A stretch of DNA of 64,000 nucleotides from Jonesiaceae bacterium BS-20 (GTDB lineage: Bacteria > Actinomycetota > Actinomycetes > Actinomycetales > Cellulomonadaceae). Every line of letters starts with the position of its first letter. Within the stretch, counting starts at the first letter, position 1. The notes under the pieces were generated by a model. It did not search any database and was not told where the DNA came from. It saw only the letters and a list, made by a program, of their open reading frames with translations. The position numbers were made by a program, and so were the translations under genes. This document shows, piece by piece, positions 16,322-54,110 of the stretch. The DNA lies in the NCBI GenBank assembly GCA_039995105.1, contig CP146203.1:1488001-1552000 (forward strand), read 5' to 3'.

Positions 16322-16331
16322 CCCGCACATA
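16322..16331 (+). promoter_or_regulatory. Start-associated motif, variant CCCGCACATA
   Basis: Outer of two tandem copies upstream of the prepilin gene, 29 nt before the second. No ATG lies 8 nt downstream of this one. Confidence 0.5.
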
Positions 16332-16350
16332 TATTGGTGACAATAATGTC

Positions 16351-16360
16351 GCCGCACATA
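16351..16360 (+). promoter_or_regulatory. Start-associated motif GCCGCACATA, 8 nt before the prepilin ATG
   Basis: Exact core of the repeated motif; 8 nt (TATAAGGT) separate it from the ATG at 16,369. This fixes the start of the prepilin-like gene. The transcript is probably leaderless. Confidence 0.75.
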
Positions 16361-16368
16361 TATAAGGT

Positions 16369-17859
16369 ATGCCGATAACCGCGTGCCTCAAAACGTTTGC
16401 CACTCGAATCGTGAACCGCTTTCAAGCGGCACAAACCCGCGACACCGGGTACACCCTTGTGGAAACACTGTCAGCCATTTTTCTTGTCACACTCGTTAGC
16501 ATCTCCACCGCCAGCAGTGGGATCCAGCAAGCTCGGATCACCGGGTACACCCAACACTTATCGGTCGCCCAGGGGCACGCCACCAAGATCATCTCGGACG
16601 GCCGTAAAGCAAACTTTGAAGACCTTGGCTTCTACCAAAGTGACCCTGGAGCTCCCACCGGTACGGTGAACCTCCCCCTGACAACAGTGGACGGGCCACC
16701 CGAGCCCGTAAAAGAAGATGCAGTGGTCCTAGGCGCTCAGCGCCCCACCACAGCTTCAACATTTACTGCAGGCCCACATGAAACATTCAAGTCCGGTGGG
16801 CACATTTTTAAAGCCGCAACCTACGTCACCGAGGTAAACCCACAGCCAGGCGCGGACCGGTCACGCGGTAAACGTATTACCGTGGTCATGCAGTGGGCCC
16901 CTGAGAACCAAGAAGAAACCCTCACTGGCCAATGCACCCTTGACAGCCGAAACTGCGCGGTTGAAAGTATCGTACGGACAGCGTCAGGGTCCGACATTGA
17001 CCCCATCAGCGGTGACTACGCCTCATCAACGTCCACCTGCACACTGGCAGCCGCAGCCGTATGCGAAAGCTATGTGCGCTCGGGACGAGTACTGGACGGC
17101 GCCACCATGGCCTCTGCCTACTCCTCCCCGGTCCAAAATGACGATGTAGACCTGCACGCCCGGGTAACCCAACCCGCGCGTGCAATGACAGCCACTTGGA
17201 CCCACCAAGTCCCAACCCCAAAAGGGATTCAAGCCAAGACAGTCACCAAGGAACTTAGCAGTACAGACGGCGGGACCCGATGGTCCGTTACCGTTCCAGC
17301 TGACAACCTCACCGACCTAAACAACGGCGCCGGCCCCAAGGGCGAGATTCGGGCAGGCGACGTGAAAGTCACCTTCACCGCACAGTTCGACAACGCCCCC
17401 GCCCACACCCGCTCCACAGATTCATTCTGGGCCTACCAAATGTCCACAGGCGACACCGTTGACCACGTCGACGCTTCCCTGTCTCCAGAGTCCGCCACCG
17501 CAACCACATGGTGCTCCCCCATTACCCCGCAACCTCTCACGTTTGAAGTCACAGGGCATTCCGTTGGACTAAAAACCACAAACTCCCCGACCTCAGCTGC
17601 AGACCGCGTGTACGTCGTATTCACCACCAAAAACGGGACAACAACTTCAACTACAAAAGTTGAAGCCTCCATCATCGAAGCGCGTGACGTCACCAGAAAC
17701 ATCTCAGGAACGCTCGTGACAATTTCCGCAAACGCTGACTGGAAGGTGACACCTCCACCTACCGCAAACTGCGATGTCACCTCAACCGCAGTCGTCATAG
17801 TTGAACGAGCCGTTGACCGGTCCACCACCACACTTCCCCTGACACTAACCGTCGCTTAA
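16369..17859 (+). CDS. Large prepilin-like protein (type IV pilus minor pilin)
   Basis: A protein of 496 residues with a class III (prepilin) leader. Residues 1-27 end in Gly27, followed by YTLVETLSAIFLVTLVSIST, so Glu falls at position +5 of the mature protein as required for assembly. The hydrophobic helix is about 30-50. The remainder is an extracellular beta-rich domain with paired cysteines (CTLDSRNC, STCTLAAAAVC). At about 470 mature residues it is far larger than a normal major pilin, so a minor or tip-associated role is likely. It is followed at 9 nt by the giant adhesin gene, in the same operon. A prepilin peptidase must come from elsewhere. Confidence 0.8.
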   Translation: MPITACLKTFATRIVNRFQAAQTRDTGYTLVETLSAIFLVTLVSISTASSGIQQARITGYTQHLSVAQGHATKIISDGRKANFEDLGFYQSDPGAPTGTVNLPLTTVDGPPEPVKEDAVVLGAQRPTTASTFTAGPHETFKSGGHIFKAATYVTEVNPQPGADRSRGKRITVVMQWAPENQEETLTGQCTLDSRNCAVESIVRTASGSDIDPISGDYASSTSTCTLAAAAVCESYVRSGRVLDGATMASAYSSPVQNDDVDLHARVTQPARAMTATWTHQVPTPKGIQAKTVTKELSSTDGGTRWSVTVPADNLTDLNNGAGPKGEIRAGDVKVTFTAQFDNAPAHTRSTDSFWAYQMSTGDTVDHVDASLSPESATATTWCSPITPQPLTFEVTGHSVGLKTTNSPTSAADRVYVVFTTKNGTTTSTTKVEASIIEARDVTRNISGTLVTISANADWKVTPPPTANCDVTSTAVVIVERAVDRSTTTLPLTLTVA

Positions 17860-17868
17860 GGACACCTG

Positions 17869-23901: not shown

Positions 23902-23907
23902 ACCCCT

Positions 23908-24386: not shown

Positions 24387-25106
24387 CTAGGACGGTGCAA
24401 AGGACAAGGTGAAACCGAAGTCTTGCAAGACCAGGCAAAAACGGGTCCATTCCACCGGGCCGAGCACGAGTTCAGTCCTGCCAAGCAGTTCAGTAAGATC
24501 CGCGGACCTCACCTCACCGGTGATCATGTTCATGCGCATCTGTACCCGAGCTAATGCTTCATCCCCGGTCGCCTGCGAAACTGAGGTGAGGTACACCCAC
24601 AAGGCGCTCACCACCGCATCGTAAGTACCTGGCTCAACTGCGCTTGCACGCACCCCATCAACCCAGTCGTTCACTGTGGCGCCATGGGTAAGTTGAGAAG
24701 CGACAAGGGTGAAGTCAATTGCAGGAGCGTCAGCGAAATGGTTCAACGCACCAAACGTCACCAGGACATTATGTGGGTCCAGTGCGTCCGTCCAAGCGTC
24801 ACGCAACTGGGCAAAGGCGGTCACCACCGAAACGTCCTCAGCAACGGCCAGCGGAGCCACCCTTTCCATCAACTGCGCCATCGTCGCAAAGAACTCGGCA
24901 GCAGGGTCCCCCAAGCGAGAACTTACCTTCGCCCAGACACGAGCCATTACCCTGTTCACGTCAGCTTCAACCTGGCATGCCACTGCTTCAACCCATTGCG
25001 CTTCAGTAAGCTGTTCACCTTGCATTCCGAGCCGAACTGCACGCTGCTCATAGCTGCTGGCGTTCGTCGCATAAAACTGTCGTGTGCGTAACGCTGAACT
25101 GCTCAT
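24387..25106 (-). CDS. Unknown helical protein in the pilus locus
   Basis: A protein of 239 residues starting MSSSALRTRQFYATNASSYE. The start at 25,106 is supported by GAAAGGATG 6 nt upstream; longer in-frame extensions have no support. It is predicted all-helical, rich in Ala, Val and Glu, with no signal peptide or membrane span. It is preceded by a 13-residue leader ORF and one copy of the TGCCGCACATA motif. I recognise no family. Position suggests a cytoplasmic partner of the pilus machine, but this is only contextual. Confidence 0.65.
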   Translation of the reverse strand: MSSSALRTRQFYATNASSYEQRAVRLGMQGEQLTEAQWVEAVACQVEADVNRVMARVWAKVSSRLGDPAAEFFATMAQLMERVAPLAVAEDVSVVTAFAQLRDAWTDALDPHNVLVTFGALNHFADAPAIDFTLVASQLTHGATVNDWVDGVRASAVEPGTYDAVVSALWVYLTSVSQATGDEALARVQMRMNMITGEVRSADLTELLGRTELVLGPVEWTRFCLVLQDFGFTLSFAPS

Positions 25107-25128: not shown

Positions 25129-25170
25129 CTACCTGCAAGGTTCTTGTCCAAGAAACACTAAGAGGGGCAT
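25129..25170 (-). CDS. Leader ORF of 13 codons after the start-associated motif
   Basis: ATG at 25,170 lies exactly 8 nt downstream of a motif copy, as at the full-length genes. It encodes MPLLVFLGQEPCR and stops at 25,129, about 22 nt before the ribosome binding site and start of the next gene. It may simply be the leaderless first ORF of that mRNA, or a translational leader. No amino-acid bias points to attenuation. Confidence 0.35.
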   Translation of the reverse strand: MPLLVFLGQEPCR

Positions 25171-25201
25171 GCCACTCCTATGTGCGGCAAGCCCCTCTTA
25201 G
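25158..25201 (-). terminator. Hairpin with the motif in its loop
   Basis: An 11-bp perfect stem (CTAAGAGGGGC at 25,158-25,168 with its complement at 25,191-25,201) encloses a 22-nt loop that contains most of the motif copy at 25,179-25,189. It could terminate transcription from the pilC operon while the same DNA starts the next gene. Confidence 0.5.
25179..25189 (-). promoter_or_regulatory. Start-associated motif TGCCGCACATA
   Basis: Exact copy, 8 nt before the ATG at 25,170 of the 13-codon leader ORF. Confidence 0.7.
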
Positions 25202-28191: not shown

Positions 28192-29862
28192 TTAAGAAAC
28201 CGCTCGGCGGATTTCATTGATAGTGGTTAGTCCTGCAGCAACTTTGAGCCACCCATCTTCACGCAGCGGCACCATGCCCTCTTCGCAAGCAATGGCCGTA
28301 ATTTGTGATGGTGGGATGTTGGGATTACAAATCGCCTCCGCAATACGGTCGGTCATTGCCATTGCCTCATGTACGGCAATGCGCCCCCGGTACCCGTCGT
28401 GGCACAGTTGGCATCCAATAGCTTCAAAGAGGTTCACGTCCGTGCCGGCAGGAACAGTGAACCCCACCTGCTTCAACAAGGCCTCGTCTGTTTCTACCGG
28501 TTGTTTACATGCCTTGCATAGCGCACGTACCAAACGTTGAGCGAGGACGCACCGGATGGTATCGGCCAGAAGGAATGGTTCAATGCCCATCTTGACAAGC
28601 CTTGAGACTGCTGCGGGCGCTGAGTTCGTGTGCAACGTAGACATCACCAGGTGACCCGTTTGGGCTGACTCAATTGCAATGGAGGCGGTCTCCTTATTGC
28701 GGATCTCTCCAACCAAAATGATGTGCGGGTCTGCACGCATGAACCCGTCTAGTGCAGTTTCAAACGTCAACCCCGCCTTGCGGTTCATTTGCACCTGGGA
28801 GATACCTGGGATCTGATATTCAACAGGGTCTTCCGCGGTGATGATCTTGACCTCGGGTGAAGCTTTCTCAAGCAGGGTTGAGTTCAAGGTTGTGGTCTTG
28901 CCGGCACCGGTAGGTCCACTTACGATGATCATGCCGATAGGGTTGCTGTACGCGTCCTGCCAAGTCTTGAGCACTGACTCGGACATCCCAAGTTCTTCAA
29001 CTGCCAGTGCCTTACCGGAGTCGTCCAGGATTCGAATAATGACTTCCTCACCAAACTGGGCCGGCAACGTCGTGATACGAAGGTTGACCTTGGTGCCATC
29101 AACCATGTGGGTAATGCGCCCGTCTTGGCTGACACGTTTTTCTTCAACCTTCATGTTGGCCATTACCTTGACCCGCGCAATGACCAGGTCAGCCACTTCC
29201 TTCCTGATGGGGGTGCGCACGGCAAGCACTCCGTCAATGCGATACCGCACACGAAGTTTTTCTCCATCTGGTTCAAAGTGCACATCTGAAGCGCCATCAC
29301 GCAGTGCCTGTTCAAGGTGCAGTGCTACGATCCGCACGCCCGTTTGGCTACCCGTTTCACCAACATGCTCAGCTGAAAGTTCCGCAATCTCGCTGTCGTT
29401 ACGGTACACAATTGAGCGCATTTCATCGATTTGCTTGGACGTCGCTAGCAGGAAATCAATTTGGTACCCCTGCAAGGCAATCTGCAGGTCTGAACGTACC
29501 TGCGAACTGCGGTACGCCTTCGGCCCCCATGCGATCGTTACTGCATTGCCAGCGATTCGAAGTGGAACAACACCTAAAGTTTCAGCTCGCTTTTGTGTAA
29601 TCAGGGAACTGGCGTCAGCAGAATGGGTTTCAGCCCGCAGGTTGTAGGTGGCAGCAACACCTTCACTTGCTTTGGTACCTGCTATATAAACGACCTCGCG
29701 GTCAAGCCCTGCTAGCTCGGCAATGGTTACACCTAGTGCCTGCGCTCCTGGCCGGGCTGAAGCCTGACGAGCTGCAGCCGCAACCTCTGGTGAGATAAGG
29801 CCATCTGCAACAAGCAGGTCCGCAATATCTGACTTTGTTTGGGGCAATACCGAAGTGCTCAT
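28192..29862 (-). CDS. pilB: Type IV pilus extension ATPase PilB
   Basis: A protein of 556 residues. An N-terminal MshEN/T2SSE_N region (DIADLLVADGLISPEVAAAA) leads to the ATPase core. Walker A is GPTGAGKTTTL (near residue 319), followed by KIITAEDPVEYQIPGISQVQ, Walker B HIILVGEIRNKETA and His box LVMSTLHTNSAPAAVSRLVK. A zinc-binding tetracysteine (CKAC and CQLC) is typical of PilB/GspE. It powers pilus polymerisation. It heads the pilB-pilT-pilC-unknown operon and is divergent from pilM. No copy of the start-associated motif precedes it. Confidence 0.95.
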   Translation of the reverse strand: MSTSVLPQTKSDIADLLVADGLISPEVAAAARQASARPGAQALGVTIAELAGLDREVVYIAGTKASEGVAATYNLRAETHSADASSLITQKRAETLGVVPLRIAGNAVTIAWGPKAYRSSQVRSDLQIALQGYQIDFLLATSKQIDEMRSIVYRNDSEIAELSAEHVGETGSQTGVRIVALHLEQALRDGASDVHFEPDGEKLRVRYRIDGVLAVRTPIRKEVADLVIARVKVMANMKVEEKRVSQDGRITHMVDGTKVNLRITTLPAQFGEEVIIRILDDSGKALAVEELGMSESVLKTWQDAYSNPIGMIIVSGPTGAGKTTTLNSTLLEKASPEVKIITAEDPVEYQIPGISQVQMNRKAGLTFETALDGFMRADPHIILVGEIRNKETASIAIESAQTGHLVMSTLHTNSAPAAVSRLVKMGIEPFLLADTIRCVLAQRLVRALCKACKQPVETDEALLKQVGFTVPAGTDVNLFEAIGCQLCHDGYRGRIAVHEAMAMTDRIAEAICNPNIPPSQITAIACEEGMVPLREDGWLKVAAGLTTINEIRRAVS

Positions 29863-32929: not shown

Positions 32930-35059
32930 CTATGCCATGACCTTGTCCCATGATCTGGGGACGCTGTCTACCTTGCTGCTGTTACTCGTATCAGCGCCGG
33001 TCCCATGGATCAAAGCGTCAAAGTCAACCTGGGTTGTAGGTGCAGCCATCGGCGCTGGGATCTTTGTTCCCGGGGTGATGTCATCTTCTACTTCCAGGGT
33101 TTCTTCCTGGTCATCGTCGTCATCCTCATCGTCCAGGAGCCCTTCAAGGCCAGTGCGGTCGAACTGTGGCTCCACTGGTGCAACAGGTGTCGATGGGGGC
33201 TCTGAAAGATCGGCGACTTGGTTTGCTCGAGTGCGTAGTTCACCGAGCTCATTGGTGAGCTGGTTCAATTCAGGTGACTGGGAATCCAGGTCGGCGACCA
33301 CTTGCACTGCCAGCGCACTGCCACGGCCTGAGACGTCTACACGAGCCCTAACTTCTCGGTGACGGGCTACTGCTGCGTCAAGGGATTCACGTGCTTCTAG
33401 GGCGCTTTGCGATGCCGGTTCGACTAGCTCGTTGTGAACTTCCTCGAGTGCTGCTTGGGCGGCGCGAAGTGCTGGGCCCACCTTGCTCTCTACGGCTGCG
33501 TCCGCTTCCGTGGCTGCGTTCTGGGCGTTCTCAAGTTCAGCGGCCATTGCGGCTAACTGCGCTTCAGCGGCCTTGACCGCAGCGATAGCTTCACGGTGTC
33601 GAGCGTGCGCTGCACTCAAGTTTTCCTGGGAGGTTGCCGCCCTGGTGAGGTGGTCACGACCGCCCTCTCGAACTTGTTCAAGGGCGTTAGCTGCCGCCTG
33701 CTCTTCGCTAGTAGCGTCGTGCAGGGTTCCGTTGGCGGCACTGCTTGCTGCCGATGCTGCGAGCATATCTGCATGCTGCACTTCAAGTTCAGCCACATCA
33801 GCGGCCAAGGTGTTCAGTGCGGTGAATGCCGAGGTGGTTGCTGCTTCAGCTGCGTGACGTAGCACTGCAGAGCGTAGGTCCTGCTCGTCGGTGCCTTCTG
33901 CCTGCGCGACCCACTGGGCCAGCACGTTTACATCTGTGTGCTCCGTTCCATGTTCAGTTTGGGCGGGTGCGGTCTCTGGGGCTGGTGTGATCACCGGCGC
34001 TGGGGCCACTGGGGCTGATATGAGGTTCTGGCTAGCCTCTGGTTCTAGGTCTAGCAGGTCCGGTTCAATGTCCTGCACGACCTCAGGCTCACGATCAACG
34101 ACCGGCTCGGCAGTGTACTCCACCTCTGGTTCAGGGGTGTCTTGCTCATCGTTCATTGCCTCTGCCTCTGGCTCATGCAGTGGCTCTACAGGTGCGCTAG
34201 CGGCAACTTCATCCACCTCTGAAGCGAGGGACTTGGGGGTTGAGGCCCATTCGTTTTCAAGGGACTCTAGCGCCTCAGGGATGGGGAACTCTGGCAGTTC
34301 AACGGTGCCATGCCCAATAGTCATAAGGACTTCAACATTCTGCATGAGCGAACGTGAGAGTTCCTTGAGCAGAGCGTGTCGGGTGGTTCCAGTGGTGTAG
34401 GCCAGTTCGTCTACCGGGTGCTTTCCCGCGAACAGGGCGTGGCCTGCAATGCTTGGCACAAGAACCCGGCACGCCTTTGAAGCTGGCCTTGGGGGAAGGT
34501 TGTGCTCCGCAAGTACCTGGGTGATGATCCCCCAGTTTTCTGTCAGTTCCCGAATGCGAGTGGCGGTGTCTGTAAAAACTGATGCAAACTTTGTTGGGTA
34601 AAAGCGTCCGTGTGCAGCGGTGTCTTTACGGGTTTTTGCTACCCGTACATCAGGCCAGCTGAGTGCAGATGCGAACAGGCCGTAGGACCAGTCGCGCACG
34701 CTGGCGTCCAGTACGTCAGGGTCAATTCCTTGGTTGCTGAGCCACAAGAGCCCGTCCTGGTCTGGTGGGGGTGTTTGCCCGGTCAGTTGACGAGCAAGAG
34801 CGTCGATGGGGAATGCGAACTGCGGAGAGTGGATCGCGGTAACCTCACCGGCAGCGAGGTAGACAATGATGTCTTTCCCCATGCTGGTTGCTGTTACCGA
34901 ACCCGTGAAGCCTTTATCCGCGAGTCCGCGCACCTCGCGCACAAGTGCTGACTTGGCGCCGATGGAGGATGTGGTCAAAGTAGTTGTCCAGGTTTGCGGG
35001 CCGCTGAGCGGCGTGGATAGGGGTTTCCCTGATTTTATTGCAGGGGTGTCGCGTTTCAC
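32930..35059 (-). CDS. Large coiled-coil protein with DUF4388-like N-terminal domain
   Basis: A protein of 709 residues starting at GTG 35,059. Residues about 40-85 (GFTGSVTATSMGKDIIVYLA, then GEVTAIHSP) resemble the DUF4388/PATAN domain found in regulators of motility. About 90-260 looks like winged-helix or helical sequence. About 280-370 is an acidic Glu/Pro-rich linker. About 385-600 is a long Ala/Glu coiled coil. The C-terminus is acidic (LLDDEDDDDDQEETLEVEDD) and then basic. There is no signal peptide. It is convergent with pilO and preceded by a motif copy 61 nt upstream. A cytoplasmic pilus regulator or scaffold is inferred. Confidence 0.65.
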   Translation of the reverse strand: MKRDTPAIKSGKPLSTPLSGPQTWTTTLTTSSIGAKSALVREVRGLADKGFTGSVTATSMGKDIIVYLAAGEVTAIHSPQFAFPIDALARQLTGQTPPPDQDGLLWLSNQGIDPDVLDASVRDWSYGLFASALSWPDVRVAKTRKDTAAHGRFYPTKFASVFTDTATRIRELTENWGIITQVLAEHNLPPRPASKACRVLVPSIAGHALFAGKHPVDELAYTTGTTRHALLKELSRSLMQNVEVLMTIGHGTVELPEFPIPEALESLENEWASTPKSLASEVDEVAASAPVEPLHEPEAEAMNDEQDTPEPEVEYTAEPVVDREPEVVQDIEPDLLDLEPEASQNLISAPVAPAPVITPAPETAPAQTEHGTEHTDVNVLAQWVAQAEGTDEQDLRSAVLRHAAEAATTSAFTALNTLAADVAELEVQHADMLAASAASSAANGTLHDATSEEQAAANALEQVREGGRDHLTRAATSQENLSAAHARHREAIAAVKAAEAQLAAMAAELENAQNAATEADAAVESKVGPALRAAQAALEEVHNELVEPASQSALEARESLDAAVARHREVRARVDVSGRGSALAVQVVADLDSQSPELNQLTNELGELRTRANQVADLSEPPSTPVAPVEPQFDRTGLEGLLDDEDDDDDQEETLEVEDDITPGTKIPAPMAAPTTQVDFDALIHGTGADTSNSSKVDSVPRSWDKVMA

Positions 35060-35120
35060 CCAAGGAGGACCTAGCTCGCGACAAGGTGTGTCGCTGGTTG
35101 GATACCTTGGGTGATGTTCC

Positions 35121-35131
35121 TATGTGCGGCA
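35121..35131 (-). promoter_or_regulatory. Start-associated motif TGCCGCACATA
   Basis: Exact copy pointing at the coiled-coil gene, but with 61 nt to its GTG start and no start codon 8 nt downstream. This mRNA would have a leader. Confidence 0.6.
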
Positions 35132-35574: not shown

Positions 35575-35584
35575 CCCGCACATC
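35575..35584 (+). promoter_or_regulatory. Start-associated motif, variant CCCGCACATC
   Basis: 8 nt before the ATG at 35,593 of a 14-codon leader ORF that is coupled to the zinc-finger protein gene. Confidence 0.6.
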
Positions 35585-35592
35585 CACTAGTC

Positions 35593-35637
35593 ATGGACCA
35601 GCACGATCACACTTACACACCCGTGGCCCCACGGTGA
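35593..35637 (+). CDS. Leader ORF of 14 codons coupled to the next gene
   Basis: It encodes MDQHDHTYTPVAPR. Its ATG lies 8 nt after a motif variant, and its stop overlaps the GTG start of the following gene (GTGA). Ribosomes loading on the leaderless ATG would terminate on the next start. Three of the first eight residues are His or Asp-His pairs, which may be chance. Confidence 0.45.
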   Translation: MDQHDHTYTPVAPR

Positions 35638-36260
35638 CCCCATTAAAAACCCCTCGCGTAGCTGCCGGGGTGACCACAGGGGGTCAGTTCACAACCGCCG
35701 CCCGCACTGAACCCACGCTCAGTCTGCGTACTCCAGCATCAAAAACACATGACGCTGAGGGGTTCCCAGTCGTAACATGCGGCCGCTGCAAAGGCACGGG
35801 CAAGTCCGAATACTCCCGCACAAGCGGTCACAACCAATGCTTCAACTGTGGCGGAACCGGGTTCACCCACGAGGCCGGCCCGGTAGCCAATGCTGTAAAA
35901 GCCCTCGCAAAGGCACGCCTGACCGCTGCCCGCCCACGCGCACACCAGATAGCAGCTGGAGACCTCATCTCACCCGTGCACAAGGAATATGGGCGCACCC
36001 AATGGGCAACCGTCGCAGCAATGCACGTGTCCCTCGCCCATCCTTCCAGGACCGTGCGTACATTGACCGGCGAACGCCCAACGGCCTACCACGCGATCAT
36101 CAAAATGACCGACGGTTCCCTCATTCGCACCACCACAGACACCGTCTTTGCGCGCCGTGGAGCAAACGTCGACCTCACCCCGTTTCATGACATGGCCGCC
36201 GGCAAACCTGTGGATCCGCGGTTACTGGCGAACCCTAAGATCCTCCCCAACCATCTGTAG
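35634..36260 (+). CDS. Small protein with DnaJ-type half zinc finger
   Basis: A protein of 208 residues starting at GTG 35,634, coupled to the leader ORF. The N-terminus has the motif RVAAGVTTGGQF, shared with the protein at 36,718 (RTPAGVSSGGEF). Residues about 47-77 contain CGRCKGTGKSEY and CFNCGGTGF, two CxxCxGxG units as in the DnaJ zinc domain. The C-terminal half (about 105-208) is a basic alpha-beta region. It is cytoplasmic by appearance. No full family is recognised. Confidence 0.65.
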   Translation: MTPLKTPRVAAGVTTGGQFTTAARTEPTLSLRTPASKTHDAEGFPVVTCGRCKGTGKSEYSRTSGHNQCFNCGGTGFTHEAGPVANAVKALAKARLTAARPRAHQIAAGDLISPVHKEYGRTQWATVAAMHVSLAHPSRTVRTLTGERPTAYHAIIKMTDGSLIRTTTDTVFARRGANVDLTPFHDMAAGKPVDPRLLANPKILPNHL

Positions 36261-36289
36261 CCAAGGCCTACCCAGGGGCCCAAAATGCA

Positions 36290-36299
36290 CCCGCACATC
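36290..36299 (+). promoter_or_regulatory. Start-associated motif, variant CCCGCACATC
   Basis: 8 nt before the ATG at 36,308. It shares CCCGCACATCCACTA with the copy at 35,575, a 15-nt match. Confidence 0.65.
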
Positions 36300-36307
36300 C
36301 ACTATGT

Positions 36308-36721
36308 ATGACCATCACAATGATTGCCCCGCCAATAACTCCTGACCCGCCACGACACATCGTTCTTGACCGGCACTTGCACCAAGACTCCGCAATTACC
36401 ACCATCACCTTGATGACTGGCGGACCCCACCCAGACGCGCTCCTTGCGATTGCGTCTGTCGCTATGCCGCAACTGGACGGGGTTCCTGCAGGTCACCTTG
36501 AGGCGTATTGTGCCCGGGCCTACAACACGTTAGCTGTCAATCAAATGCCCGGTTCAGCCCAACTTGAAGCGCACTTTGCAGTTTCTGCTTCCACCATGTT
36601 CACCGCGGCCGAGCACGCAGCTTTTATTCGAGGGCGTACCTACATTGACGCGCTCATTAAAGACCTCGCATCGGGAGCTTTGCTCGGTGCTTTTGCAACT
36701 ACTGATTGGAAACTGCCATGA
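36308..36721 (+). CDS. Unknown small protein
   Basis: A protein of 137 residues (MTITMIAPPITPDPPRHIVL...). It is mostly helical in the second half, without a signal peptide or membrane span. The start is fixed by the motif 8 nt upstream; there is no ribosome binding site. It overlaps the next gene by 4 nt (ATGA). I do not recognise a family. Confidence 0.6.
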   Translation: MTITMIAPPITPDPPRHIVLDRHLHQDSAITTITLMTGGPHPDALLAIASVAMPQLDGVPAGHLEAYCARAYNTLAVNQMPGSAQLEAHFAVSASTMFTAAEHAAFIRGRTYIDALIKDLASGALLGAFATTDWKLP

Positions 36722-37327: not shown

Positions 37328-38308
37328 TCAGCTGCACTTGCCAGCCTTAATCTTCTTGGCAATGGCATAGTCCGAAGCCTTTGGCATGCCGGTTCCCTTG
37401 ATCTTAGGGGCTCCCAAATTGTGTGCGTAGGCGTCCGTAACGTTCTCCACCCGCTTGCCAACAATGGGCGGGATAGGAGTCCCGCACGTCTTCATCATGG
37501 CACGGTGTGACAGCTCATGCAGGGTGACGTACTTTACCCAGGCACTGGACCGGTCCAAGGCACGGTTGGTCAGGTAAATCGTGTCAGGGGTACCTGCACC
37601 GAAGCAACCAAGAAGATTTGCCACACCTGGGCACTGGTTCGTCACCAGGGCGACCTTGGCGCCATACGGCTTAGCAATCTGATTTGCGTACGCTAGTTGC
37701 TTGGCACGTGCGCTTGTAGGCTTCTTTGCGGCCGGCTTGGCAGCTGCTGGCTTGGAGGACTTAAGGTACGACGTAGATACGTACCCACCAGTGGATAGCT
37801 TTGCCCACTTACCCTTGGTGGAAACAACGGTAACCTTGGAGCCTTTCTTCAACGACTTGATGACGCGGTGCTTGGTGCCCTCACCAGCACGCACGTTCAA
37901 GTTACCTGTGGTGTACATGGTCTTGGACTTCGAGGAGCTAGCCGCGGCTGGCAAGTTTGTTTTCTTGGCACTTGGCTTTGCGGCAGGCTTCTTGGAAGCA
38001 GGCTTTGACGCTGGTGCCGCCTTCAGATACGAGGTGGATACGTAACCGCCGGCGGACAGTTCTGCCCACTTACCCTTGGTGGAAACAACGGTAACCTTCG
38101 TACCTTTCTTCAACGACTTGATGACGCGGTACTTGGTGCCCGCCCCAGCACGCACGTTCAAATTGGACGTCGTGACCTTCACGGACGTAGATTTCTTTGC
38201 TGACACCACAACTTGGTGGGTTACAGCCTGAGCTGGGGTGGCGGTGGCCATTGGTGCCACCATCATCAGTGCAGCACCTAGGAGTACTGTCGTAGTCATT
38301 TTCTTCAT
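37328..38308 (-). CDS. Secreted protein with two SH3b domains and an HExxH motif
   Basis: A protein of 326 residues. The start at 38,308 is set by the motif 8 nt upstream and by the signal peptide MKKMTTTVLLGAALMMVAPM, cleaved after TPAQA. Two near-identical bacterial SH3 domains follow (about 45-100 and 130-185, each with NLNVRAG.GTK.RVIKSLKKG and GGYVSTSYLK), joined by Lys/Ala/Pro-rich linkers. The C-terminal domain (about 205-326) has VTLHELSHRAM, a zinc-metallopeptidase HExxH, plus four cysteines. SH3b domains usually bind peptidoglycan. A wall-bound peptidase or wall-remodelling role is inferred. The metallopeptidase family is not identified. Confidence 0.72.
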   Translation of the reverse strand: MKKMTTTVLLGAALMMVAPMATATPAQAVTHQVVVSAKKSTSVKVTTSNLNVRAGAGTKYRVIKSLKKGTKVTVVSTKGKWAELSAGGYVSTSYLKAAPASKPASKKPAAKPSAKKTNLPAAASSSKSKTMYTTGNLNVRAGEGTKHRVIKSLKKGSKVTVVSTKGKWAKLSTGGYVSTSYLKSSKPAAAKPAAKKPTSARAKQLAYANQIAKPYGAKVALVTNQCPGVANLLGCFGAGTPDTIYLTNRALDRSSAWVKYVTLHELSHRAMMKTCGTPIPPIVGKRVENVTDAYAHNLGAPKIKGTGMPKASDYAIAKKIKAGKCS

Positions 38309-38316
38309 GCTGGACT

Positions 38317-38327
38317 TATGTGCGGCA
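38317..38327 (-). promoter_or_regulatory. Start-associated motif TGCCGCACATA
   Basis: Exact copy, 8 nt before the ATG at 38,308. Confidence 0.75.
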
Positions 38328-38371: not shown

Positions 38372-38587
38372 CTAAGACCTACCGGTATGGGCCAGGATTG
38401 TGAACGGCCCATACCTGCGCGCATAAGCCAAGGTCAGCGCTGCCGTCTCTGGGTAATGGATGAACCCTTCCAGTACCGTGCCGGTGTCCCCAATGCGATC
38501 AAGCACGACTGTGCCGTCAGGCAGTCCTATTAACGTTTTGACAGTTCTTGGCGTGCTGGTGCCAGTGCCGTTCACATTTGTTTTCAT
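38372..38587 (-). CDS. Unknown protein of 71 residues
   Basis: It starts MKTNVNGTGTSTPRTVKTLI at 38,587, 8 nt after a motif copy, with no ribosome binding site. The short alpha-beta sequence has no signal peptide, span or cysteines. It is real because of the motif placement and even codon use. The family is unknown. Confidence 0.55.
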   Translation of the reverse strand: MKTNVNGTGTSTPRTVKTLIGLPDGTVVLDRIGDTGTVLEGFIHYPETAALTLAYARRYGPFTILAHTGRS

Positions 38588-38595
38588 ACTCTGAA

Positions 38596-38605
38596 TATGT
38601 GCGGC
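38596..38605 (-). promoter_or_regulatory. Start-associated motif GCCGCACATA
   Basis: Core copy (preceded by C instead of T), 8 nt before the ATG at 38,587. Confidence 0.72.
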
Positions 38606-45042: not shown

Positions 45043-45765
45043 TCAAGCGGATGGGAGGGCCCGGATTTGGTCAGCAATGTGCTGGCGCGGGGTCTTGCCG
45101 GCAGGAAGGTACCCGTCGCCAGTTGCAACTTCTTGGGCAATTTGTTCACGAGCGTGAACCATGATCAACGGCAAGGCTTCACTTAAAGCGGTATTAGCTT
45201 CTTCAACGGCACCGTCGCAATGAGTACCGTCAGTGAACCCGTGATCTTGATGTTCAAGGCATCGGAATGTTTCGTCCTCGTCACGGAAGCACCCGTGCTG
45301 CTTCATGATGGAACTTGCTGCCGCGTGTAGAGCTGCCTGCGGCACTGGGCCTGCTGGGACGAGGGTGGAATCCTCACTTTGACGCTGATCAGTGGTTCGT
45401 GGCGCGGTTTCTACGACCTCGATACCTGCACCTCGAGCCCACCGCTCTAACCTGGGCAGGCCCCCAATAAGGATTTCTGCCTTCATGACTTCCACGACCG
45501 TTAGTGACCAGATTCTGGTCATCATGTCCTGGGCCCGATTTACCCTGCAGTACACAGGAGACACATCTATGGAACGTTCAAAGTGCATGGTGATTCCACT
45601 GAAATGCAGTTTAAGGTCGAACGGCAGCTCGTCATCCACATCAAGGGTGAGGTGCGCGTTTTCATCTGGGATGAATTGGGTGGTTAAGGTGGCCGATAGG
45701 AACTCTGGCATCCCTTCCTCAGCTGCGGGGAGGGACGGGTTGGTTTTCGACTTGAGTGCTGTCAT
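45043..45765 (-). CDS. Unknown protein, paralogue of the 47,582 gene
   Basis: A protein of 240 residues starting MTALKSKTNPSLPAAEEGMP, 8 nt after a motif copy. The block LPFDLKLHFSGITMHFERSI...GGLPRLERWARGAGIEV aligns with APFELKVDFVRGFTVEIHRD...GGLPALESWALERGIDV of the protein at 47,582. It also has a unique C-terminal half with His/Cys residues (HGCFRDEDETFRCLEHQDHG, then HCDGAVEEA). Family unknown. It is the first gene of a small operon with 44,514 and 44,007. Confidence 0.65.
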   Translation of the reverse strand: MTALKSKTNPSLPAAEEGMPEFLSATLTTQFIPDENAHLTLDVDDELPFDLKLHFSGITMHFERSIDVSPVYCRVNRAQDMMTRIWSLTVVEVMKAEILIGGLPRLERWARGAGIEVVETAPRTTDQRQSEDSTLVPAGPVPQAALHAAASSIMKQHGCFRDEDETFRCLEHQDHGFTDGTHCDGAVEEANTALSEALPLIMVHAREQIAQEVATGDGYLPAGKTPRQHIADQIRALPSA

Positions 45766-45773
45766 GTACTGCT

Positions 45774-45784
45774 TATGTGCGGCA
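45774..45784 (-). promoter_or_regulatory. Start-associated motif TGCCGCACATA
   Basis: Exact copy, 8 nt before the ATG at 45,765. Confidence 0.75.
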
Positions 45785-45844: not shown

Positions 45845-46624
45845 TTAGCTTGCACCCCAGCCGTGAATAACCCAGCCGCCGAGCTCTGTACCCATTTCAG
45901 CTGGAGTGAGTACCTTGCGCGTACTTACCGAGAATGTTGCCTGCACCAGATTGCGCACTGTTGCCTTTGCGGACAGGAGTGCTTTACCACTGCTACGGCG
46001 GGTGATCGCGATGACTTCAAAGCTGCTCTCCCCCGTGATGGGGCAACTGTAGGTCAGTTCTTGGCGTGCTGCGGCATCTAGTGCGGCACGCGCTGCGGCC
46101 TGAGTGGGGTACCCTTTATCCCATTTTGGCATCATAGAGATGCGGGGACCCATGATGAAGTATAGGGTTTCAGTGGTTTCCCTGGGCACTGAAACGGTGA
46201 CGCGGGGGATAACTTCTTGGACATTGGTGCGGTGAAATTCGGTAATCTCTAAGTCTTTGCCGAACTTACCAGCTTTGCGAATCGCGGCCAGCAAACTTGT
46301 CTGGTCCTGCAGTTCTGATTCCTTAAGGTCCAACGTAACGTTCACGACTTGCACTGCGTCCCGCATGGCCTTGGTTTCTTTCAGGAACGGTATCGCTTCA
46401 CATTCACGTTTTGCCAAGGAGTCGTACCGGGACTCAGCGAGCCGAATCGCGTCATCAAGAGGCATGGGCTTGATGTTTAAGGCCTTAATTCCTTCGGTTG
46501 TGGAAATGCTCCCGTTGTAGCTGTCGTAACCGAACTCGTGCCTTGCCCCGTCAACTAGCATGTCGTAGGTGTCGCTTGCGCTTGCTGTTGTTGCAACCTG
46601 TTGACGGAAGTATTCTGCGCCCAT
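45845..46624 (-). CDS. Unknown protein of 259 residues
   Basis: The likely start is ATG 46,624 (MGAEYFRQQVATTASASDTY), with only AGGCAG nearby; a longer frame to 46,873 overlaps the Panacea gene and is rejected. A motif copy lies 56 nt upstream. The protein is soluble, with an alpha-beta N-terminal half (DMLVDGARHEFGYDSYNGSI) and a beta-rich C-terminal half ending LGGWVIHGWGAS. No family is recognised; proteins like this are common in mobile DNA. Confidence 0.6.
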   Translation of the reverse strand: MGAEYFRQQVATTASASDTYDMLVDGARHEFGYDSYNGSISTTEGIKALNIKPMPLDDAIRLAESRYDSLAKRECEAIPFLKETKAMRDAVQVVNVTLDLKESELQDQTSLLAAIRKAGKFGKDLEITEFHRTNVQEVIPRVTVSVPRETTETLYFIMGPRISMMPKWDKGYPTQAAARAALDAAARQELTYSCPITGESSFEVIAITRRSSGKALLSAKATVRNLVQATFSVSTRKVLTPAEMGTELGGWVIHGWGAS

Positions 46625-47581: not shown

Positions 47582-48010
47582 CTATTGGGCGTTGGCTCCA
47601 ACAACTGGTTGGTCACGCCATACGTCGATACCGCGTTCAAGCGCCCATGACTCTAGTGCGGGCAGTCCGCCGTACAGTACTTGCGTGCATGCTGCTGAGA
47701 ACAGCGTCATTGTCCAGTCGCGTGCTGGTTCCTGCAGGGTTTTCAGTTCGCGTTCCGGTAAGGACAGGCCAGGGCCCCAACATTCTGGGATGATCATTTC
47801 GCCATCGCGATGGATTTCTACGGTGAATCCACGTACAAAATCTACCTTCAGTTCAAAGGGTGCCCTGATGATCTGGTAGCTGCGGTGCGGGTTGTTGGCC
47901 AGCAGCTCTAGGGGCTGAGTGCGCATTTTAATGCGCTCAACCGTTGGCATGCCTGTTGGGTATGGAGGTAGGAGTGGAACTGGACGTTGAATGCGAACTG
48001 CGGTGCTCAT
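47582..48010 (-). CDS. Unknown protein, paralogue of the 45,043 gene
   Basis: A protein of 142 residues starting MSTAVRIQRPVPLLPPYPTG, 8 nt after a motif copy. Residues about 65-135 align with about 45-120 of the 45,043 protein, including the GGLPALESWALERGIDV ending. The His/Cys-containing C-terminal half of that paralogue is missing. First gene of the set 47,582 - 47,153 - 46,680. Confidence 0.62.
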   Translation of the reverse strand: MSTAVRIQRPVPLLPPYPTGMPTVERIKMRTQPLELLANNPHRSYQIIRAPFELKVDFVRGFTVEIHRDGEMIIPECWGPGLSLPERELKTLQEPARDWTMTLFSAACTQVLYGGLPALESWALERGIDVWRDQPVVGANAQ

Positions 48011-48017
48011 GACCTTC

Positions 48018-48668
48018 CTATGTGCGGCAGCATTCGTGCATTTCAGATTCGAAATATTGCCAGGATGAAAGGGTCAGCTGGTCACCTGCAAAACCTGGTG
48101 TCCACCATGGGGCAAGTTCCATCATGGCTGGAACATTTGCGCTTGTCAGTACCGTGCCTGTGGTGCCGGTGGGCCCTTCACTAAAGGTTGCCAGCCAAAC
48201 CCCTGCGCTGGAGTACACCCGGTACGCGGTTGCGGCAGGTGGGGCGCTTTGAGGCCCGACTTCGACTGGTGTTTGGGCGTACAGTGCCGCGGACACGTCC
48301 CGGTTGGTGCGGCTCAGCAAGGTGACTAGGTTGTGACCAATGCGCAGTGGCTTCGAACTGTTCCCCGGGTGCAGTTCATGAAAAACCGCGTATACCAGCT
48401 TGCCGTGTTCCATTGTGGCTAGTTGCCGATCAACCTTTGAAGGCCAAAGGTGCACTGCTCTTGTTAAAGCCACTGCCCCAATGGAGGTGAGCACTAGCGT
48501 TCCCATCCAGTGCTCCCGGGTGATCACTGCAATGACGGTACCAATGACCCCAAGTAGAGCCCCTGCCGCTGAAGCCTTACGTGACCTGCCTGGGTTCTGG
48601 TGTAAGTTGGCCGGCACTTGAAGGGCCTGCGAGTCTGCACCTGATGTTCCTTGATTTGCCTGGTTCAT
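48018..48668 (-). CDS. Membrane protein of unknown function
   Basis: A protein of 216 residues with two adjacent spans (about 32-48, AAGALLGVIGTVIAVI, and about 55-75, MGTLVLTSIGAVALTRAVHL). A cytoplasmic or external alpha-beta domain follows (about 80-216). Its ATG overlaps the ligase stop (ATGA), so it is translated with ligA. The C-terminal Cys-Cys-Arg-Thr lies on the start-associated motif of the next gene. Family unknown. Confidence 0.62.
   Translation of the reverse strand: MNQANQGTSGADSQALQVPANLHQNPGRSRKASAAGALLGVIGTVIAVITREHWMGTLVLTSIGAVALTRAVHLWPSKVDRQLATMEHGKLVYAVFHELHPGNSSKPLRIGHNLVTLLSRTNRDVSAALYAQTPVEVGPQSAPPAATAYRVYSSAGVWLATFSEGPTGTTGTVLTSANVPAMMELAPWWTPGFAGDQLTLSSWQYFESEMHECCRT
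48019..48029 (-). promoter_or_regulatory. Start-associated motif TGCCGCACATA overlapping a stop codon
   Basis: Exact copy, 8 nt before the ATG at 48,010. In the upstream membrane-protein frame it reads Cys-Arg-Thr and leads into the TAG stop. Confidence 0.75.
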
Positions 48669-50710: not shown

Positions 50711-50718
50711 ACTTCACC

Positions 50719-50729: not shown

Positions 50730-50763
50730 TTGTCGGTGTCTGCTGCCCCGTCCTCTTGCTAGA

Positions 50764-50774
50764 TGCCGCACATA
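50764..50774 (+). promoter_or_regulatory. Start-associated motif TGCCGCACATA (YdjM side)
   Basis: Exact copy on the plus strand, 8 nt before the ATG at 50,783. It shows that the motif follows gene direction, not strand. Confidence 0.75.
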
Positions 50775-50782
50775 CATTAGGC

Positions 50783-51565
50783 ATGATGGGAAAACACCAT
50801 GCAGTCAGCGGCGCAGCCGCTTGGATTGCAGTTACCGCAACCGGTCCACTTGCTTTGGGAAGTAATCCCTTGCCTCCATTGGCAGTCATTATTGGGGCCG
50901 GGGTGACGGCCGGAGCGGCACTTTTACCTGATGTAGATCAACACAACGGCACGATTGCTCACAGTGGCGGGCTGGTCACTAAGGCGGTTGCCTCGGTAGC
51001 TCAAGGAGCGTCCGGTGGGCACCGTCATGGACTGCATGGCATTTTGGCGATCGTTGGGTTTTATCTCGCGACCACTTGGTTGGCTGGTTTTTCCGGCGAC
51101 GTGCCATTCCTGGGGACCATTCCTATTGGTTCCGCTTTGCTGTTGCTGGCTTTGGTGGCTTTCGCGCTGAAGGCGTTGAAGTTGAGCAAGGGCGGCATCG
51201 TCAAGCTGTGGCTTTCAGCGTTTGCGCTCACTGTTGGTCTACTGGCGTTTGCCCCGGAACAACTTGAGTGGCTGCCACTGTCAGTCATGGTTGGTGTCGC
51301 TACTCACCTGGTGGGCGATTTTATTACCACGGGTGGACTACCTCTGTTTTGGCCTTGGGTTCCCAAGCCGCCCAAGGTGCTGCATGCCGTTCCGGTGATC
51401 AACCGAATTTGGCAGCCCAACGGGTACATGGCTGTGCCAGTACTGGGGAACACAGGTTCTGCTCGTGAGTGGGTGCTGTTTGTTGTCTTGAGCGGTTACA
51501 CACTTGCTGGCCTGTTAGGTGAAGGGGCACACCTTGTAGGCCAGTCCTTTAGTTGGTGGGGATAG
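50783..51565 (+). CDS. YdjM-like membrane protein (DUF457 metal-dependent hydrolase family)
   Basis: A protein of 260 residues from ATG 50,783 (MMGKHHAVSGAAAWIAVTAT); the motif 8 nt upstream rules out longer starts. It has the family's histidine and aspartate motifs (KHHAVSG, LLPDVDQHNGTIAHSGGL, GGHRHGLHG, THLVGDFITTGGLPLFWPW) and several membrane segments. Family members are inner-membrane proteins induced by DNA damage or linked to envelope work in various bacteria. The substrate is unknown. Divergent from ligA and followed by the RuvC-like gene. Confidence 0.85.
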   Translation: MMGKHHAVSGAAAWIAVTATGPLALGSNPLPPLAVIIGAGVTAGAALLPDVDQHNGTIAHSGGLVTKAVASVAQGASGGHRHGLHGILAIVGFYLATTWLAGFSGDVPFLGTIPIGSALLLLALVAFALKALKLSKGGIVKLWLSAFALTVGLLAFAPEQLEWLPLSVMVGVATHLVGDFITTGGLPLFWPWVPKPPKVLHAVPVINRIWQPNGYMAVPVLGNTGSAREWVLFVVLSGYTLAGLLGEGAHLVGQSFSWWG

Positions 51566-51605
51566 TTGCCCTACCTTCGATTGTCCCTGTTGAAAGGTTG
51601 ATGTC

Positions 51606-52301: not shown

Positions 52302-52394
52302 CGCTCTGCTTGCAGCTCACGCACCGGTCTCACTACGAGCCGGTGCGTTTGCCATTTCCAGGGATGGTTTGCGCTCGGTGTGCGATCTGACTTG

Positions 52395-52435
52395 ACGAGA
52401 ACGTTTGTGACTGTATTAGTAACAAACGTTTTCGT
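52395..52435. promoter_or_regulatory. Inverted-repeat operator upstream of abiEi
   Basis: ACGAGAACGTTTGT (52,395-52,408) and the arm ACAAACGTTTTCGT (52,422-52,435) are complementary except for one position. AbiEi antitoxins are known to bind inverted repeats in their own promoter; TACGAT at 52,440-52,445 could be the -10. The rest of 52,302-52,478 has no gene. Confidence 0.7.
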
Positions 52436-52478
52436 AGTCTACGATGTTATCAACGATAGCGAACCTTAAGGTGGTGCA

Positions 52479-53096
52479 GTGAAGCAGGTTGAAGCGCTTG
52501 AAATCTTAGAGATGGTTGGAGCTGACACTTATGGCTTGGTGACCACCAGCATGGCCGCGGAATCCGGGGTCCCACGCAGTTGGGTTTCGAGGCTTGCCCG
52601 CAATGGGCACCTTGAACGGCTACGTCAGGGGGTGTACGCACTGCCTTCGGCGACGCTCGACAAGTACACCGATGTTCGAGGGGCTTGGCTGTCCCTGACA
52701 GAAGCAAGCCATGCGTTACCTGGCGATAAGATCGTTGCTTCGGGGCCCACCGCGGCGTTCCTGCACGGCGTTGGGAACCTCATCCCCACAGTGCACGAGT
52801 TCACAACCACTTCCGGCAGGTTAACAAGGCAACATGACATTGTGTTGACGCAAAGTTCCCTGCGAGACGGTGACGTACAAGAGCTTCACGGGGTTGCGGT
52901 TACTACCCCTGCCCGCACTGTTCGTGACCTTGTAAGAGCGGGAATTGATGGTGACCACCTTGGGGATGTAGTGAGGGATTTCCTTGGCCAGGGTGTGGGC
53001 CGGCGTGTGATGTCCGCTGGTCTTGAAAATGGGGCCCCATTGTTTGACGCGGCGAACGGCCGTGAACTTCTTCAACGGTTTGCTCCACGAGGTTAA
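52479..53096 (+). CDS. abiEi: AbiEi-family antitoxin / transcriptional repressor
   Basis: A protein of 205 residues starting at GTG 52,479 with AAGGTGG upstream. The N-terminal winged helix (LVTTSMAAESGVPRSWVSRL followed by ARNGHLERLRQGVYAL) is characteristic of AbiEi. The C-terminal part (VTTPARTVRDLVRAGIDGDH) is the usual AbiEi domain. In this type IV toxin-antitoxin system it represses its operon and counters AbiEii without binding it. It is directly followed by abiEii after 7 nt. Confidence 0.88.
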   Translation: MKQVEALEILEMVGADTYGLVTTSMAAESGVPRSWVSRLARNGHLERLRQGVYALPSATLDKYTDVRGAWLSLTEASHALPGDKIVASGPTAAFLHGVGNLIPTVHEFTTTSGRLTRQHDIVLTQSSLRDGDVQELHGVAVTTPARTVRDLVRAGIDGDHLGDVVRDFLGQGVGRRVMSAGLENGAPLFDAANGRELLQRFAPRG

Positions 53097-53103
53097 GGAA
53101 CCC

Positions 53104-54051
53104 ATGCTAAATAGAGCTGAGCTGCAGCGTCGCCGGGCCAAGTTAAACAAATCGTTCAAGCAGGTTGCAATCGAGCGCGGCAGCTCCGAGATGGACGTTC
53201 GCAAGCAGTTTGTGTTTGCGCTCTTTTGGAAGCGACTGTACCTAGGCGGTGACCCGGGCTGGTTACTTCTGGGTGGAAATGCGCTGCTGATTCGCACGGG
53301 TGGTGGTCGGCACACTAGCGACATCGACTTCGCGCGTGATGAGGTTTGGGAAGACCCGGCTGAGCTGCACAAGGAATTGCAAGAGAAACTGCGGGCTGGT
53401 AACGACCTTGACGACTTCATCCTTGACGTTGTGAACGTGAAGCCACACGCGGACCCTGACGCTTTGGGGTACGGAACGAAGACTGCGGCCGCAACGATCG
53501 TGGTGTCTCTGGGAGGTAAGGAGTTCGACCGGTTCAAGGTTGATATTACGAGCCGGAAGTTCATTGACTCCACTGTCGATTTACTTCCACTGCAGCCGGT
53601 GTTCGCAGATCCGGCACTTGAGAAACTGCCGGCAATCCCTACGGTGCCGGTAGAGCATCACGTCGCAGATAAGATTGCGGCACTTTATGACACTTACGGT
53701 AAGGATGGGGGCCCTTCTACTCGGTATCGTGATCTGGCTGATCTTGTTCGCATTTTTCAAGGGCCACTGCCTGGTAGCGGGCAGGAGATAACAGTTGATG
53801 CTGCCCGTTTGCGCGCCGCGCTCGTTTCGGAAATTGGCCGGCGCAAGATGGTTTGGCCTACCCAGTTTTCAGCCCCTGGGCCTTTGTGGCTGGCTGAGTT
53901 CCCGCGACTAGCTGCACAGTATGCCCAGTACCCTTCTGACTTTATGGACCTCGCAGCGGCTCTCGCCTACGTCTCCGAAGTGCTTGGTGATGTACTCACT
54001 GGCGTGCGAACCAATGGGGTGTGGCATTCGGCTAAAGGAACTTGGATTTAG
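53104..54051 (+). CDS. abiEii: AbiEii-family nucleotidyltransferase toxin
   Basis: A protein of 315 residues from ATG 53,104 with AAGGAAC upstream; a longer frame overlapping abiEi is rejected. WLLLGGNALLIRTGGGRHTS followed by DIDFARD is the nucleotidyltransferase GG..L...R.T.DID signature. It continues with PVEHHVADKIAALYDTYGKD and RYRDLADLVRI, conserved in the family. AbiEii halts growth by nucleotidyl transfer to host targets and gives abortive phage resistance or element stability. Intact by sequence. Confidence 0.9.
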   Translation: MLNRAELQRRRAKLNKSFKQVAIERGSSEMDVRKQFVFALFWKRLYLGGDPGWLLLGGNALLIRTGGGRHTSDIDFARDEVWEDPAELHKELQEKLRAGNDLDDFILDVVNVKPHADPDALGYGTKTAAATIVVSLGGKEFDRFKVDITSRKFIDSTVDLLPLQPVFADPALEKLPAIPTVPVEHHVADKIAALYDTYGKDGGPSTRYRDLADLVRIFQGPLPGSGQEITVDAARLRAALVSEIGRRKMVWPTQFSAPGPLWLAEFPRLAAQYAQYPSDFMDLAAALAYVSEVLGDVLTGVRTNGVWHSAKGTWI

Positions 54052-54099
54052 CTGGTCAGCGCGATGGTGACGCTGCGGTGCGCAACGGTGGCAGGAAGG

Positions 54100-54110
54100 T
54101 GCCGCACATA
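54100..54110 (+). promoter_or_regulatory. Start-associated motif TGCCGCACATA, last copy
   Basis: Exact copy on the plus strand; a GTG follows after 5 nt rather than an ATG after 8. It is the rightmost copy in the window. Confidence 0.6.

Follow-up and report, generated by a model that had tools for sequence, protein, structure and literature searches.

A motif concentrated in one large element of Jonesiaceae bacterium BS-20 and shared with actinobacterial megaplasmids: a probable leaderless promoter and its candidate sigma factor

The stretch of 64,000 nucleotides from Jonesiaceae bacterium BS-20 analysed here (contig CP146203.1, positions 1,488,001 to 1,552,000; below, "the window") carries part of a large element in which the sequence CCGCACAT recurs at a fixed distance before start codons, with the first C of the motif at -17 and the ATG at +1. 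The motif is probably an element-specific promoter core, read by the host core RNA polymerase together with a diverged sigma factor, of the g144 family, that the element itself encodes. Transcription is predicted to start 17 nt past the first C of CCGCACA; at about 30 called element genes that point is the A of the ATG, which would give leaderless mRNAs, and at other copies, such as that of ligA, the gene begins some way past this point and its mRNA would carry a leader. The sigma gene would itself be under the same promoter, forming a positive loop. Two classes of site can be distinguished: class A, of the TGCCGCACATA type in this element and with a CGGKGAG -35 box added in two Micrococcaceae plasmids, and class B (CCGCACATnYAC...), which has no -35 box and would drive the sigma genes of three elements as well as most of the genes whose products bear an N-terminal R(V/I)xAGVxxGGQF tag.

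In the window CCGCACAT occurs 17 times (mean of 100 shuffles 3.35, largest 8) and CCGCACAT-N9-ATG 11 times (mean 0.06, largest 1); the 11 coordinates for which the initial annotation had described a fixed ATG spacing were all recovered exactly. Of the 17, 16 lie upstream of genes, as that annotation had said of the sixteen copies it counted; the other one (28,721-28,728) falls within the called gene 28,192-29,862, probably by chance. The spaced ATGs had also been taken to mark genes, and nine of them do begin open reading frames, of 71-1582 codons; the frames that begin at 25,170 and 35,593 have just 13 and 14 codons, the genes there being called at 25,106 and 35,634. The remaining five gene-directed copies comprise one in tandem at 16,323 and four with a predicted leader, before 35,059, 46,624, ligA (50,668) and a gene that lies past 54,102; the ligA motif had already been described as lying further upstream, with a leader. 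The features of the window are:

16,323-16,331, plus strand: the upstream one of two tandem copies, CCGCACATA, with its predicted start at 16,340 (A)
16,352-16,371, plus strand: class A motif, 9 nt and ATG of a 496-amino-acid gene (16,369-17,859), pilin-like N-terminus by eye
25,168-25,187, minus strand: motif and ATG 25,170 of the 13-codon frame; the gene called at 25,106 has a Shine-Dalgarno-like site
35,112-35,131, minus strand: TGCCGCACATA, predicted start 35,112 (A), leader to a 709-amino-acid gene at 35,059
35,576-35,595, plus strand: class B motif (CCCGCACATCCACTAGTC) and ATG 35,593; the 14-codon frame ends at 35,637, overlapping the GTG (35,634) of a GGQF-tagged gene
36,291-36,310, plus strand: class B motif and ATG 36,308, 137-amino-acid gene
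38,306-38,325, minus strand: class A motif and ATG 38,308, 326 amino acids, SH3 domains
38,585-38,604, minus strand: class A motif and ATG 38,587, 71 amino acids
39,068-39,087, minus strand: class B motif and ATG 39,070, 149 amino acids
43,932-43,951, minus strand: class A motif and ATG 43,934, 1582-amino-acid methyltransferase-helicase, with some phage relatives annotated as DarB-like
45,763-45,782, minus strand: class A motif and ATG 45,765, 240 amino acids
46,672-46,691, minus strand: TGCCGCACATA, predicted start 46,672 (G), then a leader up to the called gene at 46,624
48,008-48,027, minus strand: class A motif and ATG 48,010, 142 amino acids
48,665-50,668, minus strand: NAD-dependent DNA ligase LigA of the element, with matches on 214 plasmid records
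50,710-50,729, minus strand: TGCCGCACATA, predicted start 50,710 (G); ligA (50,668) follows after a 42-nt leader that contains AAGGAG
50,766-50,785, plus strand: class A motif and ATG 50,783, 260 amino acids, YdjM family
54,100-54,119, plus strand: TGCCGCACATA, predicted start 54,119 (A), leader to the downstream gene

The 3.53-Mb genome, a single contig (C1), has 38 matches to CCGCACAT-N9-RTG, against one for a reversed-pattern control. Of these, 35 lie within C1:1,504,352-1,649,586 (about 145 kb), two at 2.116 Mb and one elsewhere; the motif, which the initial annotation had proposed as a mark of element genes, is therefore not equally common chromosome-wide. Since the matches are concentrated in that interval, the element reaches about 100 kb beyond the window. 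A simple gene caller finds 144 genes there, and 30 of these have the motif at its fixed spacing from the start codon. The sites at C1:2,115,613-2,116,161 match in letters and spacing those at 1,580,640-1,581,188, which suggests a second copy of that block; the element itself also holds two nearly identical copies of a block that includes two class B sites (window 35,576-36,310 and C1:1,634,876-1,635,609).

A scan of 221 genomes from the same family shows CCGCACAT-N9-ATG to be abundant in four: the one holding the window element (G000, 37 sites), G043 (59), G125 (Cellulosimicrobium sp. Marseille-Q4280, 105) and G004 (12). G043 and G125 share with this element the pilus, LigA, the methyltransferase-helicase and other genes at about 25-65% protein identity, and G004 has five genes in common with it. 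Logos of sites picked by CGCACA-N10-ATG, compared with the picked letters left out, are concordant: T at -19 and G at -18 are favoured, with C at -17, T at -10, a purine at -7 and a pyrimidine at -1, the last being C in 97-100% of the sites in G043 and G125. Matches to LigA pointed to circular megaplasmids in the genera Curtobacterium, Pseudarthrobacter, Paenarthrobacter and Arthrobacter, where two of 11 records have the exact spelling of the BS-20 element, with one match each. This apparent absence is an effect of spelling, as a de novo search, which looked for hexamers and heptamers held at one distance from a following ATG, gave another spelling at the same distance: CCGCACA in pACHL01 (79 sites, 2.9 expected) and pYJN5-1 (31, 1.4 expected), extending in both as CCGCACACAT, and CCGCGCA in Curtobacterium D40 (18, 1.6 expected). 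In the G000 chromosome control the de novo search gave strong signals from a tandem repeat (TCGGATGC...) that has no relation to the motif. Mostly 100-200 kb was read of plasmids of 375-608 kb, and 400 of 427 kb for pACHL01.

The spellings were then joined as CCGCRYA with an ATG at a distance of exactly 10 nt, and this distance was compared with the others from 2 to 30. Sites at distance 10 number 34 in G000, 60 in G043, 37 in G125, 86 in pACHL01, 35 in pYJN5-1, 13 in caox, 14 in B2242, 28 in D40, 12 in pS16 and 18 in pCPAA3, against means of 0.7-4.0 at the other distances in these ten; G004 peaks there too, with 11. Four controls -- stretches of two plasmids without a g144 homologue and two host chromosome stretches -- gave 0, 1, 0 and 0. 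Distances 0 and 1 were omitted because CCGCACACATG itself includes an ATG; the counts at distance 1 are 75 in pACHL01, 39 in pYJN5-1, 18 in B2242, 14 in D40 and 7 in pCPAA3, exceeding those at distance 10 in pYJN5-1 and B2242. The same geometry, in clade-specific spellings, is thus found in Cellulosimicrobium and relatives and in the plasmids of Arthrobacter, Pseudarthrobacter, Paenarthrobacter and Curtobacterium.

That the motif is a promoter whose start point falls on the A of the ATG is very probable from several features of these sites. Where there is neither ATG nor GTG at +1, that position is still a purine in 16 of 17 sites in G000, 32 of 36 in G043, 9 of 11 in G125, 49 of 62 in pACHL01 (where positions near +1 are purine-rich too, most of them at 40-48 of 62) and 36 of 40 in pYJN5-1; pooled, 142 of 166 are purines at +1 versus 55 of 166 at -1 (p 4e-9 versus a 65% purine background). 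The G000 set consists of 17 GCCGCACATA sites, two of them well inside called genes, and its sole non-purine has an ATG one base further on. The other nine CCGCACAT sites of G000 without a start codon have seven purines at +1, and alternative site definitions gave 15 of 19 (CCGCACATCT, G043) and 34 of 40 (GCCGCACACA, pACHL01). The bias has no explanation from start codons. As in bacterial promoters, a conserved core is found at a fixed distance from a predicted purine start that a pyrimidine usually precedes.

In pACHL01, 48 of the 77 leaderless sites have at least five of the seven letters of CGGKGAG beginning at -38, as do 50 of the 72 other sites, with 0-8 of 77 at other positions and 3.8% in random stretches; in pYJN5-1 the box is found at 18 of 30 leaderless and 30 of 46 other sites (random rate 3-4%). 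The consensus was derived from the pACHL01 leaderless sites, so that the 72 others and pYJN5-1 are the independent counts. With +1 taken as the A of the ATG, the box is at the canonical -35 distance. No -35 box was seen in the pooled sites of G000, G043, G125 and D40, where everything upstream of -20 is at most 0.32 bits over background. The earlier remark that several motif genes have no ribosome binding site proved apt: Shine-Dalgarno-like sites precede one of the 30 motif genes of the element versus 43 of its 114 others (Fisher p 1e-4). For 50-kb stretches of two plasmids the figures at annotated motif starts are 0 of 7 versus 26 of 57 and 0 of 4 versus 15 of 54, and 7 of 9 and 4 of 6 of the start codons at the motif distance are annotated starts. 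Together, the +1 purine, the -35 box and the scarcity of Shine-Dalgarno-like sites favour the original model of a promoter core that starts 8 nt downstream and gives leaderless mRNAs.

The initial annotation had further supposed that an element-specific factor serves the motif, and had proposed a search for a co-occurring sigma factor. Such a candidate does exist in g144, a protein of 340 amino acids encoded outside the window at C1:1,613,122-1,614,144, and a g144 homologue is present for 10 of 11 motif-rich elements or plasmids. Matches to it occur in four of the 221 family genomes -- G000, G043, G125 and, weakly, G037 -- three of which are the three most motif-rich (Fisher 9e-6), and on eight plasmid records, the same eight that top the list of LigA matches. 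Two genes of the element, g144 and g140, have a homologue in each of the seven plasmid stretches compared, and g144 alone among the widely shared element genes shows signs of a transcription factor. A local form of the motif stands before the g144-family gene, with 17 nt from its first C to the ATG, in G000, G043, G125 (two copies) and seven of the eight plasmids; the spacing is 16 nt for the sigma gene of pPA-B-2242. The family resembles region 2 of the extracytoplasmic function (ECF) sigma factors, with weak homology: a 12-member profile has sigma factors for 16 of its 19 PDB hits (best E 0.012), Pfam Sigma70_r2 is touched by five of the 12 members (best 3.1e-4) and Sigma70_r3 by two, one member matches TIGR02937 (E 0.001) and FecI (0.0003), and hhalign of the family to five host ECF sigma factors gave E 5.3e-6 and probability 86. 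On this evidence from sequence, the g144 family is the probable reader of the promoter in elements of the G000 and G043 type. If it is, it would therefore be autoregulated, its own gene having the motif.

In an order-wide search the sigma family was found in nine of 396 genomes, eight of them new, of which 40-100 kb each was examined. G450 has the same motif, where six sites have the predicted distance and no other distance has more than two; G382 has a variant with five sites (five also at distance 1), none of them before its sigma relative; G241 and G480 have four and three sites of CCGCACGT-N9-ATG, including that of the sigma relative; and G333 has a weak variant, GGCACATA, at three. In G167 (C3:20001-120000, L201-L205) there are two motifs at fixed distances from ATG, CGCATAGG (12 sites, CGCATA-N9-ATG) and GTCAAC (11), one site of the latter preceding the sigma relative; this suggests two promoter classes of diverged spelling. 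Five Micrococcaceae sigma genes (L133-L137) share TGCGC(G/A)TTT shortly before the motif, perhaps a -35 box particular to them.

A number of observations speak against the assignment to g144. None of the domain matches seen in the family reaches a curated cut-off, those to Pfam Sigma70_r2 included, and g144 itself has no Pfam hit; a four-member profile placed three malaria surface proteins (E 0.028-0.030) above two sigma factors (0.21 and 0.4); and in PHROGs one member of four reached a sigma family, marginally, with better scores to unrelated families. The AlphaFold model, made from two sequences, is poor (pLDDT 49), and in a weak fold search sigma chains took ranks 2, 3, 4 and 6 among unrelated folds, with E at least 0.25. 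No region-4 family is among the 11 Pfam families touched by the 12 members, and no region 4 was found in the g144 homologue of pACHL01, a plasmid of Pseudarthrobacter chlorophenolicus A6 (ACHL_RS22220, gene at 357,317-358,354; four PF08281 matches of the plasmid lie elsewhere), yet this plasmid has the -35 box. The core itself, spanning -17 to -9, is unlike the usual -10 hexamer. Co-occurrence, too, is imperfect: G004 has 12 motif sites and no sigma match in its 630-contig assembly, G037 has a weak sigma relative and no motif sites, G351 and G404 have sigma relatives and no motif detected in the 100 kb read, and in G125 the sigma genes are on contig C9 and the counted motif sites on C3. Lastly, each of the seven plasmids searched has one or more further sigma factors above the Pfam cut-off, RpoD-like in the four Micrococcaceae plasmids (E 2e-25 to 5e-23) and weaker in the three Curtobacterium plasmids.

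The last point speaks for a different reader of the same promoter, either another plasmid sigma factor or the host housekeeping sigma factor with an element activator, such as the WhiB-like g149; a WhiB-like gene adjoins the element helicase. Of three plasmids examined, the motif stands before the RpoD-like gene in caox (17 nt) and pACHL01 (ACHL_RS23625, 18 nt) and not in B2242, and in the Micrococcaceae plasmids the RpoD-like factor may read class A. Because a further sigma factor is present in all seven plasmids, and so beyond the Micrococcaceae ones, confidence in the g144 family is slightly lowered. A different reader nonetheless seems unlikely: neither the G000 nor the G043 element yielded a recognised Sigma70_r2 protein, the motif lacks a TANNNT-like hexamer, and it does not occur in the two 100-kb stretches of host chromosome and hardly at all in its own genome outside the element. 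An operator for an element-wide repressor or activator, lying beside start codons with no promoter core, would also be directional, repeated, close to gene starts and spread over the element. Such a case is offered by the Bifidobacterium conjugative megaplasmid pMP7017, which has a plasmid-only 34-bp motif at 19 sites, together with a tRNA array and tmRNA; that motif overlaps a canonical TATACT -10 with ribosome sites downstream, and is a regulator site according to its authors (PMC10832533). The likeness lies in an actinobacterial megaplasmid with a plasmid-only repeated motif, a tRNA array and tmRNA. Here, by contrast, the exact ATG spacing, the purine bias at +1 and the -35 box at a fixed distance are features of a start point, and the pooled logos of the four elements show no other strong upstream signal, which makes an operator very improbable. 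Least probable of all, and hardly to be credited, is a translation or start-associated signal of the kind named as an alternative by the initial annotation. The start-associated sequences of cluster K mycobacteriophages are likewise repeated, directional and placed just before start codons, in ribosome-site position, and they contain the Shine-Dalgarno core AGGAG (PMC3203893). The logo of the present motif has no such core, and 16 of the 17 GCCGCACATA copies with no start codon at +1 keep a purine there.

The two classes of site differ in the genes that they precede. Class B sites include those of the sigma genes of G000, G043 and G125, and the sigma factor itself bears the N-terminal tag, as R(V/I)PAGVxxGGQF, in common with some 20-30 other frames on a relative's element. 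The tag is found on otherwise unlike proteins, in seven frames of the BS-20 element, 29 of G043 and 20 of the G125 C3 stretch; GGQF-tagged frames include window 35,634-36,260, L002:17806-18831, L003:3356-4246 and L005:5122-6144. With frames below 30 codons dropped (in G000, from 34 sites to 30), tagged genes follow 20 of 31 class B sites versus one of 28 others in G043, 12 of 15 versus one of 19 in G125 C3 and four of nine versus one of 21 in G000 (Fisher 0.02); at three G125 C9 loci the figures are 17 of 19 versus one of three, which is not significant. In the plasmids tagged genes are found at 16 of 29 box-less sites of pACHL01 and six of 12 of pYJN5-1, and with the box at 0 of 48 and 0 of 18. 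The tag is possibly a delivery or packaging signal. It is a rather doubtful further step to a portable transcription system, in which the tagged sigma factor and its partners would enter the recipient with the element and switch on the leaderless genes at once; if the tag were indeed a translocation or packaging signal, the genes of an incoming element would be expressed independently of the sigma and ribosome-site preferences of the host.

Sigma factors encoded by such elements are already known, and the late promoters of phage T4 have a core without a -35 box. In T4 late transcription (gp55, gp45, gp33) a mobile-element factor likewise redirects the host RNA polymerase (PMC7892883, PMC2988020); the present system differs in its GC-rich core, in the absence of a known clamp or co-activator partner and in the -35 box of two Micrococcaceae plasmids. 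Another parallel is SigN (ZpdN) of Bacillus subtilis plasmid pBS32, a plasmid-encoded sigma factor weakly homologous to the ECF sigma factors, with a plasmid regulon that includes its own gene (19 promoters, two of them predicted, in Table 2 of PMC6751061). SigN promoters have a -35 and an AT-rich -10 (PMC6751061), unlike the GC-rich core here with its predicted start at the ATG, and the g144-type family extends over several actinobacterial families. No description of the motif or its regulon was found in the open-licence literature searched. If the proposed reading is right, large actinobacterial elements and plasmids of 375-608 kb share a promoter geometry in which start point and start codon coincide; its spelling, shifting with the sigma relative, would offer a natural series for sigma/promoter co-evolution, leaderless translation would be directly testable in dozens of genes together, and there would be a first handle on expression of large, mostly unannotated megaplasmids, with some gene starts corrected.

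A second sigma candidate, g155, was dropped when its five-member profile gave no PDB hit at E up to 10. A phage origin of the system is not supported by the searches of viral contigs and a phage collection: no relative was found in the viral contigs by the sigma profile, with tag peptide patterns used and sensitivity limited, the strict class B pattern gave two single matches, and the phage collection gave none. In pACHL01 the RpoD-like sigma factor is part of a protein of 990 amino acids, at L261:250-3222 (pACHL01 377,249-380,221), that is annotated as a sigma-70 factor; with an apparent Walker A motif close to the N-terminus and additional sequence at the C-terminus, it looks like a helicase-sigma fusion. 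A PLSDB-listed NDM-19 prediction on D40 (L191:29657-29758) spans 102 bases between genes, much less than a beta-lactamase needs, and is probably an artefact. No tRNA was found in the window and one in the six pieces of the same genome scanned (1,548-1,668 kb); the pACHL01 stretch has an array of 40 tRNAs with a tmRNA (L094:7520-16918, pACHL01 about 27.5-37 kb), and D40 has 34 tRNAs and a tmRNA in two stretches (L126, L127). A WhiB-like gene, recognised by eye here and annotated in D40, adjoins a large helicase-type gene at L005:8121-8471 and L191:14736-15113.

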